DNA from: Ignavibacteriota bacterium
GTDB taxonomy: Bacteria; Bacteroidota; Ignavibacteria; SZUA-365
Direction of reading: 5' to 3'
Assembly (NCBI GenBank): GCA_016218045.1
Contig: JACRFB010000057.1
Coordinates: 1-59,857, forward strand
DNA length: 59,857 bases
The notes beneath the pieces were generated by a model that did not search any database, was not told the origin of the DNA, and saw only the letters and a program-made list of their open reading frames with translations. Positions 16,083 to 54,262 of the stretch are shown here, one piece after another. The translations under genes were made by a program, and so were the position numbers. Each line of letters opens with the position of its first letter. The stretch's first letter is position 1.

Positions 16083-16372
16083 AGTGAAAAGCGATGTGGA
16101 AAGTAGCAAAGTAGCAAGGTGGCATAGTAAAAGAACTGCCGATCCGATTCTTTTACCTTGCTACGTTGGATGTAGAATGTGGAAAGTAGCAAGGTGGAAA
16201 GTAAAAGATCTACCGATCCGATTCTTATACCTTGCTACGTTGGATGTAGAATGTGGAAAGTAGCAAGGTGGAATGTAAAAGATCTACCGATCCGATTCTT
16301 ATACCTTGCTACGTTGGATGTAGAATGTGGAAAGTAGCAAGGTGGAAAAGTAAAAGAACGGCCGCTCCGATT
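16083..16372. repeat. Array of GTAGCAAGG hairpins, four units
   Basis: Units begin at 16111, 16186, 16260 and 16334. The first three are complete 53-54-bp hairpins ending at 16164, 16238 and 16312; the fourth loses its right arm after about 16372. The last three are exactly 74 bp apart because a GTTGGATGTAGAATGTGGAAA linker is copied with them. The arms GTAGCAAGG.../...CCTTGCTAC and GTAAAAGA/TCTTTTAC (varying to TCTTATAC in units 2 and 3) would fold into a long stem with an asymmetric bulge. They lie between the divergent vWA and sensor-kinase genes. Confidence 0.9.
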
Positions 16373-16575: not shown

Positions 16576-16684
16576 GTCCATTTGTTTCCTGTTCTCAGAG
16601 GTGTAGATTCCGCGATATTCACCCAGAAAACAGGATCTCGTTCGCTTGAGTCAGGTCGGGAGGTGCCGCCCCTCGTTCAACCGT

Positions 16685-16706
16685 CATGCCTGCAGTTGCA
16701 GGCATG
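16685..16706 (+). promoter_or_regulatory. Perfect hairpin covering the ribosome site of the sensor kinase
   Basis: CATGCCTGCA (16685-16694), loop GT, TGCAGGCATG (16697-16706): a perfect 10-bp stem ending two bases before the ATG at 16709. The only Shine-Dalgarno-like bases at a workable distance (AGG, 16700-16702) are in the right arm, so folding would hide them. An in-frame GTG at 16706 also lies at the edge of the stem. Confidence 0.5.
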
Positions 16707-16708
16707 TG

Positions 16709-19700
16709 ATGTTGCTCGTGCTGCTGTGTGTGCTGCCCGGCGCCGCGGCTGCACAGGATCTGCTGCGCATGCAGAAACTGTTCGAGTTCACGCGGAAATC
16801 GGTGGACGCGGGATTGTCGCAATCGGATGTCACGTCTGTCGTGCAGGATCGTATCGGCTTCATGTGGATCGGCACGAGGGCCGGCCTGAACAAATTCGAC
16901 GGGTACCGCTTCACGCAGTATCTGCATCGGCCGGGCAATCCGCGCAGTCTCAGCGACAACACGGTCAACACACTGCTGGTGGATCGCGCGGGTGTGTTGT
17001 GGATCGGGACCATGGACGGACTCAACCGTTTCGATGCGCGGACGGAACAATTCATCCATTACCGGCACGACGCAAAAAATCCGCGCAGCATCAGCCACAA
17101 CGAGGTGCTCTCATTGTGCGAGGATGCATCCGGCACACTCTGGGTCGGCACGGCGGACGGACTGAACAAGCTCGATCGTCGCACCGCAACGTTCACACGT
17201 CTTTTCCATCCACTTCTCGACCCCGCGCAGCCGTTGATGCGGCGCGTCAGCGCCCTCGCGGCGTATCCGGGCAAGGATGCCAACAAAGTGCTCGTCGGCA
17301 CCTGGGGATCGGGGCTCTATATTTACAACACGGGCACCGGACGCTTCTCGCGCTGCCTCGGCGAAGATGGTACTCCCAGCGCACAAAGCAGGGAATGGGT
17401 CAACCACATCACCGTCTCGATCGACGGACGGATCTGGGTCACCGACGGGATGTTGCATCAATTTCTCCCCGACCGCGAACAGCTCCGCCGTGTGCTTGCC
17501 GTATCGTCCACGCCGTTCGCGGATATATTCAGCGTGGCCGCGCTGTCATCGGGAGAAATCGTGGTCGGGTGTCGACCGGGCGGTCTGATAGTGCTCGATA
17601 CACTCCTGCAGACCAGCGCGACGTATATCCACGACCCGCTCTCCGAACGAAGTCTCCCCAGGGGGAACATCAACACGATGTTCCTCAGCACGTCGGGCAT
17701 GCTCTGGATCGGATCCACCAGCGGCGTCGCGCTGACAAACACGCGGCGCGAGGACTTCTTCCCCTTCTTCCCGCGAGGTCAGAATCCGCGCGGCTTGCAC
17801 GAGGGCTCGCTCGCTGCCGCGGTGCCCACGCGCTCAGGCAAGGTGTGGATCGGGTATCAGCAGGGTGGACTCACCTGCGTCGACGAGGTCAGGCAGCAGG
17901 TGACACACATCCAGGCAGCGCGGAACGGACGCGGAGGTTTATCGAACAACTATATCGCGGCGATCTACGAGGACACGCGAGAACGGCTCTGGATCTGCAC
18001 CTGGGGCAGCGGTGTCGACATGCGCGATCCGGTGAGCGGCCGCTTCCGCAACCTGCGCTGGAACGCGAATGATCCCCACAGCTTGTGCGACGATTTTGTG
18101 GAATCCATCTGTGTGACACGCGAGAATGAACTGTGGGTCGGCACCGTCGGCGGCCTGTCCGTCCTGCATCTCGACAGTCTCGATCGAGGACGATTCACCC
18201 GCTACCTGCACTCCCCCGCCGACACCACAAGTCTCAGCGCCCCGCGTGTCAGCGCCATCATGCAGGACAGCAAGGGACACGTGTGGATCGGTACTTCCGA
18301 TGGCGGCTTGAATCTTTTCGACAGAAAAACACGCACGTTCCGCCGCTTCCGACACGACCCCTACGATCCGCATTCGATCGGCGCGAATCGTATCCTCTCG
18401 ATGTTCGAGGACAGCAACGGCCGATTGTGGATCGGCACCTGGGGAGGCGGACTCGACATGTACGATGCCGCGCGCGACCGTTTCACCCATCTCACAGAGG
18501 ATGACGGACTGCCGAGCTGCAGGATTTCCGGCATAGCCGAGGACGCACAGGGAACGATCTGGCTCAGCACCAACGTCGGGCTTTCGACCTTCGATCCGGT
18601 GACACGGCACGTCAGGAATTATGAACCGCGGGACGGACTGGCGGGCGCATCGTCGGCGTTAAACGCCCTGCGCCTCTGTCCGCGCACGGGCAGGATGTAC
18701 CGCACGAGTTACGGCGGCCTGACGGTGTTCCACCCCGACAGCATCGGGACAAACAGTTTCCTGCCGCCCGTGGCGCTCACATCCGTAAGCTGGTTCACAC
18801 TGGCGCAGGATGAGCCGGAGCGGATATCCCGCCGCGGCGTGGGGCTGTTGAAGGAGCTGGAGGTCACACACAACGATGTCGCCCTCACGTTCGAATTTGC
18901 GGCGCTCGAATATTTTACACCCGAGCGGAACACATACAGATACATGCTCGAGGGTTTCGACGACCGGTGGACACAGCTCGGAACACGGCGCGACATCTCC
19001 TTCACCAATCTCGATCCGGGGGAATACCGTCTGCGTGTGCAGGCATCAAATTCCGACGGTGTATGGAATCGCGACGGCATCACGCTGCGTATCATCGTGC
19101 TGCCTCCGTGGTGGAAGACGCGCTGGGCATATGCGGCGTACGGCGTGCTTCTGATGCTCTTGATTTTCGCCACCGCACAGATGCAGCGGAAACGTGTGAT
19201 CCGCGCTGAGCGCCTGCAGGCGTCGGCGCGCGAACGTGACTTGCGCATACAGGCGGCGGAGGCGCGGTCGCGCGCACTTGCGGCCGACAATGAACGCAAG
19301 GAGACGGAACTGCGGAAGTCGGAGGAATTACGCACGGCCTACGCCGCGCTGCAGAACGCACACGCGGATCTTGCCGCGGCCCAGCAGCGCCTCTCGGCCG
19401 TGGTGTCGGCCGCGCCCATCGTGCTCTTCGCCATGGATGCCGAGGGTGTGTTCACCATTTCGGACGGACTCGGACTGCGGCAGCTCGGCGTCGCACCCGG
19501 TGAGTCAGTCGGTCGATCCGTGTTTGACGTCTATCAGCAGAGTCCGCCCGTCCTCGAATTCTCGCGCCGTGCGCTCGCGGGCGAAGAGTTCACCTCGGTG
19601 GTGGATCTTGGTCCCGTGGTCTTCGAAGTGCGCGCCAAGCCGCTGCACGATGCGTCGGGCGCTTTTATCGGCACCATCGGTGTTGCGACCGATGTGACGG

Positions 19701-21424
19701 AACGCGCGCGTGCGCAGGAAGAGATCGTGAAGCTGTCGCAGGCGGTGGAACAGAGTCCGGCCATCGTGCTCATCACGGACACGCACGGCCGTATCGAATA
19801 CGTCAACCCGAAGTTCACACACGTGACGGGATATACTCTCGACGAGATCCGCGGGAAGACGCCGCGTATTCTGAAGTCGGGCGCGCAGTCCGACGAGGAA
19901 TACGCGCGGCTGTGGAAGGCGATCAGCAGCGGGACGGAGTGGAAAGGCGAACTGCACAACAAACGCAAGGACGGCAGCTCGTACTGGGCGTCGGCCTTCA
20001 TCAGTCCGCTGTTGTCCGCGGATGGAAAACTCACGCATTACATCGGGATTCAAGAAGACATCACCGAGAGGAAACGCACCGAGGAAGCACTCGCGAAGCG
20101 GACCGGGGAACTCGAAACCATCGACAGGATTGTGAAGGTCGTGAACCGGGAGTTCGAACTCGTCCCCCTGATCCGCGCACTGCTCGAACAGGGTATGAAG
20201 CTGCTGCCAACAGCACAGGCAGCGGGGGCTTTCATTTACGACGAATCGCTTGACGGTTTCCGCTGGGTGGCCGCTGTGGGGTATGAGATAACGGTGGAGA
20301 TGAGTTCCGCATTGACGCCGGATGAGATCACCGAACGGTTCACACAAGCAACGGAAATCGAGGCGGGCGTGTTTATACTCCGCCGCACGGAATCGCTGCT
20401 GGGCGACGACACACTGCCGGCGCTCCCATGGGCACACTGCATGTTGATCATGGCGGTGGACTGGGACGCGACACGCAGCGGAAACGACGGGTATCTCGTC
20501 TTCGACAATCTCCGAGATCCCGACGCGTTTACACCGGACGACGCGCGAAAGCTGAATCGTTTCCGCGAGCACGCGATCTCGGCGCTTGCGAAGGCCAGCT
20601 CGCTGCAGGCGCTGACGATGAAGAATCAGGAGATATTGCGCACGCAGCAACAGCTCCATCTGCAGCAAAAGATGGCGGCTCTCGGGCAGCTCACCGCGGG
20701 TGTCGCGCACGAGATCCGCAATCCCCTGAATTTTATTGTGAACTTCGCCTCGCTCGGAACGGAACTCGTGGAGGAGTACAAGGACACCGAGACACGCGGC
20801 GAGGATGTCACAGGAATGATCGACGAGATTGCGCTGATCATCCAGAAGATACACGAGCACGGAAAACGCGCGAACGGCATCGTGTCGGACATGCTCCAGT
20901 ATGCGCGCGGACAGGTGGGACGCCTCGAGCACGCGCAGGTGCACGATGTGATCGAGAAGGCGATCGAGCTGGCCGGTCCGGGCGGCGCCGAGGGCGGCGG
21001 CACGCAGGACGTGTCCATCGTCCGGCAGTTCACACCCGATCTTGTATCGATGAATCTGTTTGTCGAGAACATGACACGCGCTCTCCTGAATCTTATCGGC
21101 AACGCGCTGTATGCCGTGCGTCAGCGCGCGCGATCGGGGTCGGCCGAACCGGGATACGTCCCCGAAATATGCCTGACGACGACAAACATTCCCGACGGCA
21201 TCGAGATACGCATCCGCGACAACGGACCCGGCATCCCGAAAGAGACACTCGCAAGTATCTTCGATCCGTTCTTCACCACCAAACCCACCGGTGAAGGCAC
21301 CGGGCTCGGTCTCACCATCACCTACGACATCATCGTCAAGGACCACGGCGGCACACTCACTGTCGACAGCACACCCGGTGTGGGCACGGAGTTCATCATT
21401 GCCCTGCCGTTGAAAAAATCGTGA
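16709..21424 (+). CDS. Sensor histidine kinase with regulator propeller, Y_Y_Y, two PAS and GAF
   Basis: About 1571 aa from the ATG at 16709, which starts a clean signal peptide ([16 protein letters not shown]). The periplasmic part (about 25-740) is a regulator-type beta-propeller of repeated [VL]WIGTxxGLNxFD units, followed by a Y_Y_Y domain ([29 protein letters not shown]; about 745-800) and one membrane helix (about 805-825). The cytoplasmic part has a coiled coil, PAS (about 890-1000), PAS (about 1010-1130), GAF-like (about 1150-1290), a HisKA box with His1334 in [12 protein letters not shown], and a GHKL ATPase with [19 protein letters not shown] and GTGLGLTI. No receiver or DNA-binding domain is fused and no response-regulator gene adjoins, so its partner is elsewhere. 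An alternative TTG start at 16646 would spoil the signal peptide. Confidence 0.9.
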
Positions 21425-21517: not shown

Positions 21518-21625
21518 AACGGGGAACGGTTGAACGGGGAACGATTGGTCGAAGTGCGCGTCATGGCGCCGATGCGTTGTATCGGCATGAGACGTCACAA
21601 TCACTAGTAATCCGCAGGGGCGACC

Positions 21626-21964
21626 GGCGGTCGCCCCTGGTCGAGAGCTTGGCACGGCTATCCCGTGACTCCATTGCGGTCACAGCGGTCCACCCACCTG
21701 ATTACTGCGGCGGTCGCCCCTGGTCGAGAGCTTGGCACGGCTGTCCCGTGACTCCATTGCTGTCACAGCGGTCCACCCACTTGATTACCCGCGGCGGTCG
21801 CCCCTGGTCGAGAGCTTCGCACGGCTGTCCCGTGACTCCATTGCAGCCACAGCGGTCCACCCACCTGATTACCCGCGGCGGTCGCCCCTGGTCGAGAGCT
21901 TGGCACGGCTGTCCCGTGACTCCATTGCAGCCACAGCGGTCCACCCACCTGATTACCCGCGGCG
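21626..21964. repeat. 84-bp tandem repeat, four copies
   Basis: Units start with GGCGGTCGCC at 21626, 21709, 21793 and 21877 (periods 83, 84, 84), each running through GTCGAGAGCTTGGCACGG and CACAGCGGTCCACCCACC to GATTACCCGC. Each unit begins with one arm (GGTCGCCCCTG) of the bounding REP palindrome, so the array looks like repeated copying of a half-palindrome with its flank. The few differences (for example GCGGTCACAG versus GCAGCCACAG) show near-perfect homogeneity. The array ends 11 bp from the RAYT stop codon. Confidence 0.92.
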
Positions 21965-21975
21965 TAAACACCGTG

Positions 21976-22569
21976 TCATTTAGGCACCAGACGTTGCCAT
22001 TCACGAGCAGGATTATTGCGAATGTACCTCCGAGTGATCCGCAACATGCGTAGAGAGCGAATGATTTTATCGTGGTAATTTCTTTGCCACACGATCATCT
22101 GACCCGAACCGGATGCCTCGCGAATGCGCCGTGTCACCAGCGACTTATAGCCCGCAACGAACGCCCCCAAAGTACGCGGCAACGGGCCGTTGCGGCGATG
22201 TCTTGCTGCACATCCTGCCTCGTCGTTTGCCCGTCGCCGAAGATAGGGAGACTTGTGCACACTCCTTCTCGCGTTGGATAATCCGAAATCCATCGAATGA
22301 TTGATCCGAATAATAGCGTGGATATGATCCGGCATGATCACGTACGTGTCGAGACGGAGTTCCGCGCGAATGGATTCAGACCGAAGAAGCTCTTCTTCCG
22401 CAATCCTGCCATATGCGCTTAACACCACACCTTCTTGAGTAAGCAGACCAAAGAGATGTGTTTGTACTGCCACATGCAATGTGACATGGTACACTCCATC
22501 GCCATAATATGTCTGAATTGGATACCGGCGCGAATTCCTCCTCCGATATCGTGTCGCCGCAACACTCAT
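21976..22569 (-). CDS. REP-associated tyrosine transposase (RAYT, Y1 HUH family)
   Basis: 197 aa from the ATG at 22569, preceded by AAGGGGG five bases upstream; the much longer upstream frame runs through the 40-bp repeats and is not coding. Seen: an entry strand YHVTLHVAVQTHLF (about 24-37), the HUH metal-binding motif in YVIMPDHIHAIIRI (HIH, about 86), GAFVAGYKSLVTRRI (about 142), and the catalytic tyrosine region WQRNYHDKIIRS (about 168) followed by RYIRNNPAREW. These are hallmarks of single-domain Y1 transposases tied to REP sequences, which cut single-stranded hairpins. It is complete, and GGGGCGACC palindromes flank it on both sides. Confidence 0.9.
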   Translation of the reverse strand: MSVAATRYRRRNSRRYPIQTYYGDGVYHVTLHVAVQTHLFGLLTQEGVVLSAYGRIAEEELLRSESIRAELRLDTYVIMPDHIHAIIRINHSMDFGLSNARRSVHKSPYLRRRANDEAGCAARHRRNGPLPRTLGAFVAGYKSLVTRRIREASGSGQMIVWQRNYHDKIIRSLRMLRITRRYIRNNPAREWQRLVPK

Positions 22570-22649
22570 TCGTTCCCCCTTCTGCCTTCGTTGTACTCTC
22601 TCCGTGGTACGGACATCGTCGCACCGCGGACATCCTTTATACGCACATA

Positions 22650-22856
22650 GCGATCCTCGTGTTCCCGTGGTGGTCGTTGTGTCGCCCTGGCGATCCTCGT
22701 GTTCCCGTGGTGGTCGTTGTGTCGCCCTGGCGATCCTCGTGTTCCCGTGGTGGCCGTTGTGTCGCCCTGGCGATCCTCGTGTTCCCGTGGTGGTCGTTGT
22801 GTCGCCCTGGCGATCATCGTGTTCCCGTGGTGGTCGTTGTGGCGCCCTGGCGATCC
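22650..22856. repeat. 40-bp tandem repeat, five copies plus a partial
   Basis: Units start with GCGATCCTCG at 22650, 22690, 22730, 22770 and 22810 (the last as GCGATCATCG), with a sixth beginning at 22850 before the sequence departs. Each has the form GCGATCCTCG-TGTTCCCGTG-GTGGTCGTTG-TGTCGCCCTG with single substitutions. The period is exactly 40 bp, so reading frames drift; it is not a protein repeat. It lies between the 5' end of the RAYT gene and the right boundary palindrome. Confidence 0.93.
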
Positions 22857-23112
22857 AGGTTGCAAATCCGTAATTAGGGCGACCACCGGTCGCCCCTGCG
22901 GACGTGACGCGGTCGCACCGGAGACGTGGTGTACAACGAACGTGATCGTGTTTCCGCAGCCGCGGCCCCTTCATCATTCCGCGTCCTTGAATCATTCCCT
23001 TTCCCGCAATACATTATTTCCCATTCGCACACATCGGAGAGAGAATGGCACAGGTCGGCACCACACACGCCGATATACCATATGTTGGTCGGAAGCACAC
23101 CGGAGCCGCGGG

Positions 23113-24276
23113 ATGAGTCTGCTTTTTGTAGCCGGAATCGGCGTCGCCGTCTTTATCGAATTTCTGCTCCTGAGCAAGAAGAGGAAGTCGTCGTCGGACG
23201 TTATACTGACTGTGTGGATGGTTCTCATCATCCTGCATCTGTTTCTCTTCACGCTGTTCTTTACCGGCGATCATCTGCGTGTGCCCTTCCTGCTCGGCAT
23301 CGAACATCCGCTGCCACTGCTGCACGGTGTGTTCCTTTACTACTACGTCGCCTCCGTCACGGAACAACTGCCGAAACGCCGCACCACACTGCTGCTGCAC
23401 CTGCTGCCCGCGCTGTTGATGTATGGGTATCTCGTGTCCTTTTTTTCCCTGCCGGACGAGGAAAAAATCGCGGTGTACAGGAACAAGGGCGCTGGCTACG
23501 AAGTGTTCGGCGCAATCAAGCTCTACACCATCGCTGTCTCCGGAATCGTGTACGTCGTGGTGTCGAGTGTGCTGCTTCGAAGACACAGGCGAAATGTGCG
23601 TGACAGCTTCTCCGATCTTGCGCAGGTGGAGCTGCAGTGGTTGCGGGTACTGACCATCGGATTGGGAGGAATCTGGCTGTTGATCCTGCTCTTTCGCAGC
23701 GAGATACTGATTTTCTCGGGCGTTGTGACCTTCATTTTCCTGATAGGATTTTTTGGTGTACGACAGGGCAACATCTTTTCGCACGGTCGCCTCGACGCCG
23801 CTCCTGGTCCGGAACCGGATGTTGCTGATGAGGAAACAGCCATGCTGCCGCTTCAAGGGGACGTGACAGCGGAGCAGCCGAAAAAATACTCGAAGTCGGG
23901 ACTCGGTGACGAGGCCGCGGCCGCGCTGCACACGGCCCTGATCCGTCTCATGGTCGAGAAGCAGCGCTTCAAACAGCCCGATCTGACTATCGACGATCTT
24001 GCCGCCGAGCTGGACGCGCCACCGAATCACCTCTCGCAGGTGATAAATCAGATGGAAGCGAAAAACTTCTACGATTTTGTGAACGCGTACCGGGTCGCGG
24101 CATTTAAACACCTGATCGAGGTGGGAAAGAACCGGCAATTCACCCTGCTCTCCCTCGCTTTCGACTGCGGATTCAGTTCAAAATCATCCTTTAATCGCTG
24201 TTTCAAGAAGGAAACGGGTCAGACACCCTCGCAGTTTGCCGCGTCGTTTTCCGAGGGTGTCGAAGAGGCCGTGTAG
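23113..24276 (+). CDS. Membrane-anchored AraC-family transcriptional regulator
   Basis: 387 aa. The N-terminal half has seven or so membrane helices (SLLFVAGIGVAVFIEFLLLS ... VVTFIFLIGFFGV, to about 220), then a linker and a C-terminal AraC/XylS DNA-binding domain (about 270-380): DLTIDDLAAELDAPPNHLSQVINQ and the second helix-turn-helix FTLLSLAFDCGFSSKSSFNRCFKKETGQTPSQF. This seven-helix plus AraC architecture is common in Bacteroidota and probably couples a membrane signal to transcription. The ATG at 23113 follows a GGAG with a 7-nt gap; the upstream open frame is repeat-derived. Its target is unknown; the downstream hydrolase gene begins 140 bp later. Confidence 0.87.
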   Translation: MSLLFVAGIGVAVFIEFLLLSKKRKSSSDVILTVWMVLIILHLFLFTLFFTGDHLRVPFLLGIEHPLPLLHGVFLYYYVASVTEQLPKRRTTLLLHLLPALLMYGYLVSFFSLPDEEKIAVYRNKGAGYEVFGAIKLYTIAVSGIVYVVVSSVLLRRHRRNVRDSFSDLAQVELQWLRVLTIGLGGIWLLILLFRSEILIFSGVVTFIFLIGFFGVRQGNIFSHGRLDAAPGPEPDVADEETAMLPLQGDVTAEQPKKYSKSGLGDEAAAALHTALIRLMVEKQRFKQPDLTIDDLAAELDAPPNHLSQVINQMEAKNFYDFVNAYRVAAFKHLIEVGKNRQFTLLSLAFDCGFSSKSSFNRCFKKETGQTPSQFAASFSEGVEEAV

Positions 24277-53644: not shown

Positions 53645-53857
53645 GTGATTCCTCCTCAAACATGGTTGATCTGGTAGCTGTTTGGAACACCTTCGAGATA
53701 GGCCCCTGTTCCATGAGTTTTATTAAGTGCCGGTTCGCCACTCTGAAAACAAACGTATTGGAAAACGGGAGTACAGTTCAACAAAACCATTTAGACGTGC
53801 GGAAATATTTCCTAAGACTTCCAGCAACACCGCACCACTAGTACCTCCTCTCTGCCC

Positions 53858-54190
53858 CGTCGCACTTCGACTCCGCTCAGTGAGACACAGCTTCGTTGTT
53901 CCGCTGCCCCGTCGCACTTCGACTCCGCTCAGTGAGACACAGCTTCGTTGTTCCGCTGCCCCGTCTCACTTCGACTCCGCTCAGTGAGACACAGGATCGT
54001 TGTTCCGCTGTTCCGTCGCACTTTCCGTCGGCGGCGGACTCAGTGAGACACAGGTTCGTTGTTCTGCTGTTCCGTCGCACTTCGACTCCGCTCCGTGAGA
54101 CACGGGTTCGTTGTTCTGCTGTTCCGTCGCACTTCGACTCCGCTCCGTGAGACACAGGTTCGTTGTTCCGCTGCCTCGTCGCACTTCGAC
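53858..54190. repeat. 52-bp palindromic repeat array, seven units
   Basis: Units start at 53858, 53910, 53962, 54014, 54073, 54125 and 54177: CGTCGCACTT-CGACTCCG-CTCAGTGAGACAC and a linker AGSTTCGTTGTTCYGCTG. All periods are 52 bp except the fourth (59), whose core is TCCGTCGGCGGCGGA instead of CGACTCCG. Arms GTCGCACT/AGTGAGAC pair; in the third unit they are the exact complement GTCTCACT/AGTGAGAC. The last unit is partial. Confidence 0.92.
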
Positions 54191-54262
54191 TCCCAACTCC
54201 CAACTCCCCCGTCCCCCGTCCCCACTCCCCCGTCCCCCGTCCCCGCTCCCCGTCCTCGTCAG
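54191..54262. repeat. CCCCCGT low-complexity tract
   Basis: CAACTCC units pass into CCCCCGTCCCCCGTCCCCACT and a related copy. The tract matches the one that opens the window (1-43). It sits between the 52-bp array and the sigma factor operon. Confidence 0.85.

Follow-up and report, generated by a model that had tools for sequence, protein, structure and literature searches.

Organization of the locus

The window analyzed in this work is the whole stretch of 59,857 nucleotides (contig C57 of a 4.77-Mb genome in 72 contigs). Within it, a gene of the HUH/Y1 type lies between two inverted hairpins and is accompanied by two tandem arrays (Tandem Repeats Finder). The following features were distinguished:

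16646..21424, plus strand: hybrid sensor kinase (Reg_prop, Y_Y_Y, PAS, HisKA, HATPase), left neighbour, outside the unit
21611..21640, plus strand: left REP; foot TCC-GCAG, 8-bp stem GGGCGACC/GGTCGCCC, 3-nt loop GGC, foot outward
21625-21964: 84-bp array, 4.1 copies, 96% matches
21976..22569, minus strand: RAYT (TnpA-REP) gene, 197 aa; HUH motif DHIH, WQ motif, catalytic-type YIRNNP
22650-22856: 40-bp array, 5.2 copies, 97% matches, upstream of the RAYT start
22873..22906, minus strand: right REP; foot GTCC-GCAG, stem as in the left REP, loop GGT, foot outward
23113..24276, plus strand: membrane protein with an AraC-type HTH, right neighbour, outside the unit

A preliminary description of this DNA had reported 14-bp inverted palindromic ends, two arrays and a complete Y1/HUH gene, all of which were confirmed. 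The exact 14-mers (21612-21625 on the plus strand and 22888-22901 on the minus strand) have no other mismatch-free copy in the whole window, and the ends are even longer, with 26-nt inverted arms (21611-21636 and 22877-22902) that are 96% complementary. Folding against shuffled sequences revealed a strong DNA hairpin in each arm (z = -4.2 and -3.3), whose stability beats essentially all shuffles, so the unit has the inverted REP flanks expected of a REPtron. The stem GGGCGACC/GGTCGCCC has a base of three G-C pairs, as in the canonical subclass 2.4 REP, and in the left copy CAG/CTG lengthens the pairing. Moreover, GGGGCGACC occurs six times in the window versus 0.77 expected, a count reached by no shuffle.

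The RAYT gene and its product

The minus-strand open frame spans positions 21976-22995. Since homology starts near the ATG at 22569, this codon is the likely start, giving a predicted product of 197 aa; upstream of it the frame just passes open through the 40-bp array, the period of which is not divisible by 3.

The sequence, the motifs and the predicted fold all identify the gene as a RAYT (TnpA-REP). Its product has what characterizes RAYT proteins, namely HUH and W[QE] motifs and one catalytic Y within YI..NP. The profile of the protein matches the E. coli TnpA-REP structure 4er8 (3.7e-6), a RAYT bound to a REP hairpin, and the same structure was the best Foldseek match of the predicted model (pLDDT 82.7) in the PDB (E 2.6e-7), followed by IS200/IS605 transposases. 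Residues ~95-130, between HUH and Y, form a low-confidence insert in this model. Six residues (H82, H84, W161, Y182, N186, and P187) are invariant in 52 homologs from many phyla, and both they and the reading frame are intact. The scores obtained with NCBIfam REP_Tyr_transpos (NF047646; 55.2 bits, curated cut-off 80) and Pfam Y1_Tnp (21.8, cut-off 23) were below threshold. Its motifs and REP type, rather than a tree, place the protein closest to subclass 2.4, which equals RAYT group 4 (PMC6006769). The search of viral contigs with this RAYT gave no relatives.

REP population and guide tags

The application of a covariance model indicated about 40 REP copies in the 4.77-Mb genome, which, together with the motifs and the fold, bore out the earlier proposal of a RAYT with cognate REPs. 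The ends are therefore not unique to the unit. Among 99 relatives, 11 of them of the same family, the model gave one match, although weak relatives of the REP may be missed because the search filters were strict. No RAYT matching the window protein as closely as the paralog described below turned up in these 99 genomes. REPs therefore co-occur with the RAYT and are genome-specific, this co-occurrence representing one origin only, and the palindromes were absent or nearly so in the 99 relatives, contrary to the equal abundance in genomes lacking the gene that the preliminary description had named as an argument against its proposal.

The tetranucleotides at the hairpin foot were ACAG (20 copies), GCAG (12), ATAA (5), and GTAG (2). 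Both REPs of the window unit carry GCAG, and the paralog on contig C52 has ACAG on both sides; neither is the canonical GT[AG]G tag of subclass 2.4, which was found in 59 of the 66 homologous RAYT loci with GGGC-based hairpins. This distribution fits a tag-specific partnership between each gene and its REPs, with the reservation that it concerns two genes and that the three C52 copies on the downstream side arose as one tandem expansion. Cleavage of a GCAG-tagged substrate by the Stenotrophomonas enzyme was barely detectable (PMC8266576), therefore the tag shift would need an altered enzyme. The guide-contact residues were considered as the cause of the shift. They are D-K in the window protein, D-R in the paralog and E-H at most GT[AG]G loci, but three GT[AG]G loci also have D-R and five loci without this tag have E-H, so that no conclusion can be drawn from them.

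The change of the tag to GCAG could also mean that the system has decayed, i.e., that function was lost and the REPs are remnants. The near inactivity of the Stenotrophomonas enzyme on GCAG (PMC8266576), the low Pfam and NCBIfam scores and the two GTAG-type hairpins that are left would agree with this. Decay is nevertheless improbable in our view, as the reading frame is uninterrupted and no invariant residue has been lost, GTAG copies are outnumbered 32 to 2 by GCAG and ACAG copies, many of the latter with identical cores, and two paralogs exist, each of which has kept one tag type.

The dinucleotide CT, known as the cleavage site (PMC8266576), was found by list inspection at most two bases 3' of the stem in all six full REPs flanking RAYT genes versus 5/34 scattered copies, which are not independent of each other. 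Where scattered REPs lie no more than 200 bp apart, most of the pairs are direct tandems with a spacing of 107-177 bp. The main replicating unit is thus not a REPIN, a short inverted doublet of one REP, and the inverted pairs combine a GCAG-type with an ATAA-type REP. Four such pairs, with feet outward and 96-349 bp apart, are located at C7:2870-3000, C28:330-560, C5:37568-37950, and C5:43716-43881; possibly, they are a REPIN-like composite with two different tags. A RAYT that would match the ATAA tag was not identified. A separate class of GTAG-tagged hairpins, GTAGGGGCGAACGGCAGTTCGCCC, occurs at C11:6561-6677 (L176), C31:716-750 and C5:37391-37425, in one place repeated with an 84-bp spacing, and no cognate RAYT of this class was seen.

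Paralogous and other Y1 loci

The sole close paralog of the window RAYT (55% amino acid identity, contig C52) is also flanked by REPs on both sides, hence the gene without palindromes, which the preliminary description had regarded as contrary evidence, was not encountered. Arrays of 98 bp and 115 bp, both containing REPs, lie upstream and downstream of the paralog, respectively, and it has no array sequence in common with the window unit. The REP feet point inward at the paralog and outward at the window unit.

Inverted flanks of at least 14 bp were present at five of the seven Y1 genes of this genome versus 3/286 other genes. For homologs elsewhere, identical inverted flanks of this length were found at 19/100 loci versus 2/178 control genes, with feet pointing outward in some cases and inward in others. 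The outward polarity of the REPs was considered as a signature of transposon ends and rejected, since the paralog has inward feet and the homologs show both arrangements.

At C46:36065-36400 (L067 6427-8048), a Y1 gene lies between inverted hairpins of another class (AGCCC...GGGCGACATTC), with hairpin-containing 72/74-bp arrays and 110-bp arrays on both sides. The Y1 gene at C50:337-672 (L073) has a flanking 31-bp inverted repeat, ACGGAGCCCGAGCGCAGCGAAGGGCGACACA, and a 15-bp array of the GCACGTATCACGTC type is located at the end of this contig. At C18:77942-78079 (L074), a partial Y1 match lies between 42-bp inverted repeats consisting of two palindromes (AGCGGAGGGCGGCACATGC and TAGCCCCGGGCGAAGCCCGGGG). 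In contrast to these loci, two tandem Y1 genes at C1:332229-333133 (L072) have neither REPs nor arrays.

A complete transposase gene enclosed by 26-nt inverted ends, and the existence of a paralog with REPs on both sides, may suggest a transposon with REP-derived terminal inverted repeats, moving as one 1.29-kb unit. However, a DNA search revealed one copy of the window unit in the genome, which departs from the multicopy state of IS200/IS605 elements, and the paralog is 55% identical in protein, has no common array sequence and shows the opposite REP polarity. Furthermore, HUH-Y1 elements such as IS200/IS605 use subterminal hairpins on the same strand, not inverted ends. Movement of the whole unit, put forward in the preliminary description, is thus very unlikely. 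The empty-site comparison proposed there provided no informative empty site, since the AraC orthologs of three family members (60-65%) are situated in neighbourhoods unrelated to the window.

Tandem arrays beside the gene

The loop of the left REP marks the start of the 84-bp array, and the 3' half of this REP (GGCGGTCGCCCCTG) is present in every unit, in agreement with the earlier remark that one array was seeded by a REP half; the ends of the array have the short motif CGGCG in common. The 40-bp array was also considered as REP-derived, and this was rejected, because it has no significant similarity to the REP (an equally good match was obtained for 28% of random 40-mers from the genome). 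Two further arrays of the window, at 16093-16372 (74 bp, 3.7 copies) and 53852-54193 (52 bp, 6.4 copies), have no Y1 gene found nearby.

Counting arrays with a period of at least 30 bp, we found a strong association with the Y1 genes of this genome, three of the seven being flanked by arrays on both sides versus 1/286 other genes (p = 3e-5), and five of the seven, versus 15/286, have an array on at least one side; it should be noted that these counts comprise seven Y1 genes, the arrays of which may have a common history. This link is not due to intergenic length, because an array was found in 1/37 intergenic gaps having at least 300 bp outside arrays. Homologs in other genomes showed a weaker excess (10/100 versus 4/178 controls, p = 0.008). 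In another genome of the class (L024, G083:C73), a RAYT homolog with a 30-bp inverted REP and a GTAG tag has arrays on both sides, with hairpins upstream every ~35 bp.

The preliminary description had further supposed that hairpin nicking drives repeat expansion. The association of arrays with these genes is real, but not every array can be attributed to the RAYT, because the 40-bp array lacks a significant REP match. An alternative to be taken seriously, above all for the 40-bp array, is an ordinary REPtron whose arrays arose by replication slippage with no involvement of the RAYT, Y1 genes and REPs having settled in non-coding DNA that is prone to repeats. Many short tandem arrays elsewhere in the genome, the dissimilarity of the 40-bp array to the REP, the common CGGCG at the ends of the left array (as slippage would yield) and the bare Y1 pair of C1 are all consistent with it. 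On the other hand, arrays with a period of at least 30 bp are rare away from Y1 genes (seven in 400 kb sampled from this genome, and the 1/37 gaps given above), and each unit of the C52 and C46 arrays has a hairpin. On balance, we consider slippage as the source of the arrays quite possible, though somewhat below even odds.

Proposed model and its significance

The most probable explanation (about 0.8) is that the locus is a REPtron, that is, a single-copy, domesticated HUH/Y1 single-strand nuclease (RAYT) kept between its own REP hairpins. The likelihoods assigned to this reading and to slippage overlap, because slippage would explain no more than the arrays and can go together with a REPtron. 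The observations behind the REPtron are its anatomy, homology, the co-occurrence of RAYT and REPs, the tag types and the array association, and the inferred part comprises binding, nicking by the enzyme and the growth of arrays.

In a single-stranded state of the region, e.g., on the lagging strand, the RAYT would bind a REP hairpin together with the guide tag at its 5' side and may then nick at a nearby CT and rejoin the ends, which would leave scattered REPs and BIME-like units across the genome. Repeated nicking and rejoining, or polymerase slippage at the hairpin, could cause head-to-tail growth of the flanking DNA, so that REP-containing arrays would accumulate beside the RAYT gene, and the element as a whole would stay put, with no transposition. 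Starting from GT[AG]G, the guide tag would have drifted to GCAG here and to ACAG at the paralog, with the protein presumably changed alongside. It is plausible, as a hypothesis, that the RAYT assists REP-containing units in their tandem growth. The fuller proposal, that the guide specificity of two paralogous RAYTs moved away from GT[AG]G, to GCAG in one and ACAG in the other, each with a REP population of its own, and that, at the same time, hairpin nicking drives the adjacent arrays, is a rather speculative one, to which we give roughly one chance in five.

The inverted flanking REPs, presented as new in the preliminary description, were published as RAYT units in 2010 (PMC2817692) and are called REPtrons. 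What remains of note is, first, that a RAYT pair resembling group 4 has a shifted guide tag and, second, that Y1 genes are statistically linked with arrays on both sides. Two RAYTs that are 55% identical, with REPs differing chiefly in the foot tag, constitute a natural tag-swap experiment in RAYT group 4, while the published activity assays considered here concern groups 2 and 3, and this pair bears on the question of how RAYTs spread REPs. The link to two-sided arrays makes the seeding of tandem repeats by hairpin nicking a directly testable idea; if nick-driven growth is true, RAYT genes become nuclei of new arrays.

Comparison with known systems

The window unit appears to share with IS200/IS605 the HUH/Y1 fold and the recognition of a hairpin plus guide, whereas it is not a multicopy element and its hairpins are inverted and polar instead of subterminal on the same strand.

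Tandem REPs together with flanking DNA were described previously (PMC3733652, PMC3116915). The REPIN/REP clusters of P. fluorescens SBW25 (PMC3116915) and the tandem REP groups (PMC3733652) resemble the present arrays in their head-to-tail arrangement of REPs and flanking DNA, but here the arrays adjoin the RAYT gene and one of them lacks significant REP similarity. The Stenotrophomonas REPtron Sm (PMC8266576) is alike in its 8-bp perfect stem, 3-nt loop and tetranucleotide directly at the foot; in contrast, its enzyme hardly cuts GCAG and belongs to RAYT group 3.

According to Nunvar 2010 (PMC2817692), RAYT genes always lie between two inverted REPs, forming a transposon-like unit, and one third of these units sit in modular BIMEs; as REPtrons, they apparently do not transpose as units (PMC6006769). 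The present locus agrees with them in having one gene between inverted REPs and cognate REPs elsewhere in the genome, and it differs from these gammaproteobacterial units in the far smaller number of REPs (~40), the tag other than GT(A/G)G and the two flanking arrays with different unit sequences. The subclass 2.4 REPtrons of Cyanobacteria, Bacteroidetes and other phyla (PMC6006769) have in common with it the NH/DH[I]H, WQ and YIxNNP motifs, a variable insert between HUH and Y and long flanking REPs with a stem base of three G-C pairs (GGG/CCC), whereas subclass 2.4 has a GT[AG]G tag and NH[IFV]H, replaced here by GCAG (ACAG at the paralog) and DHIH.
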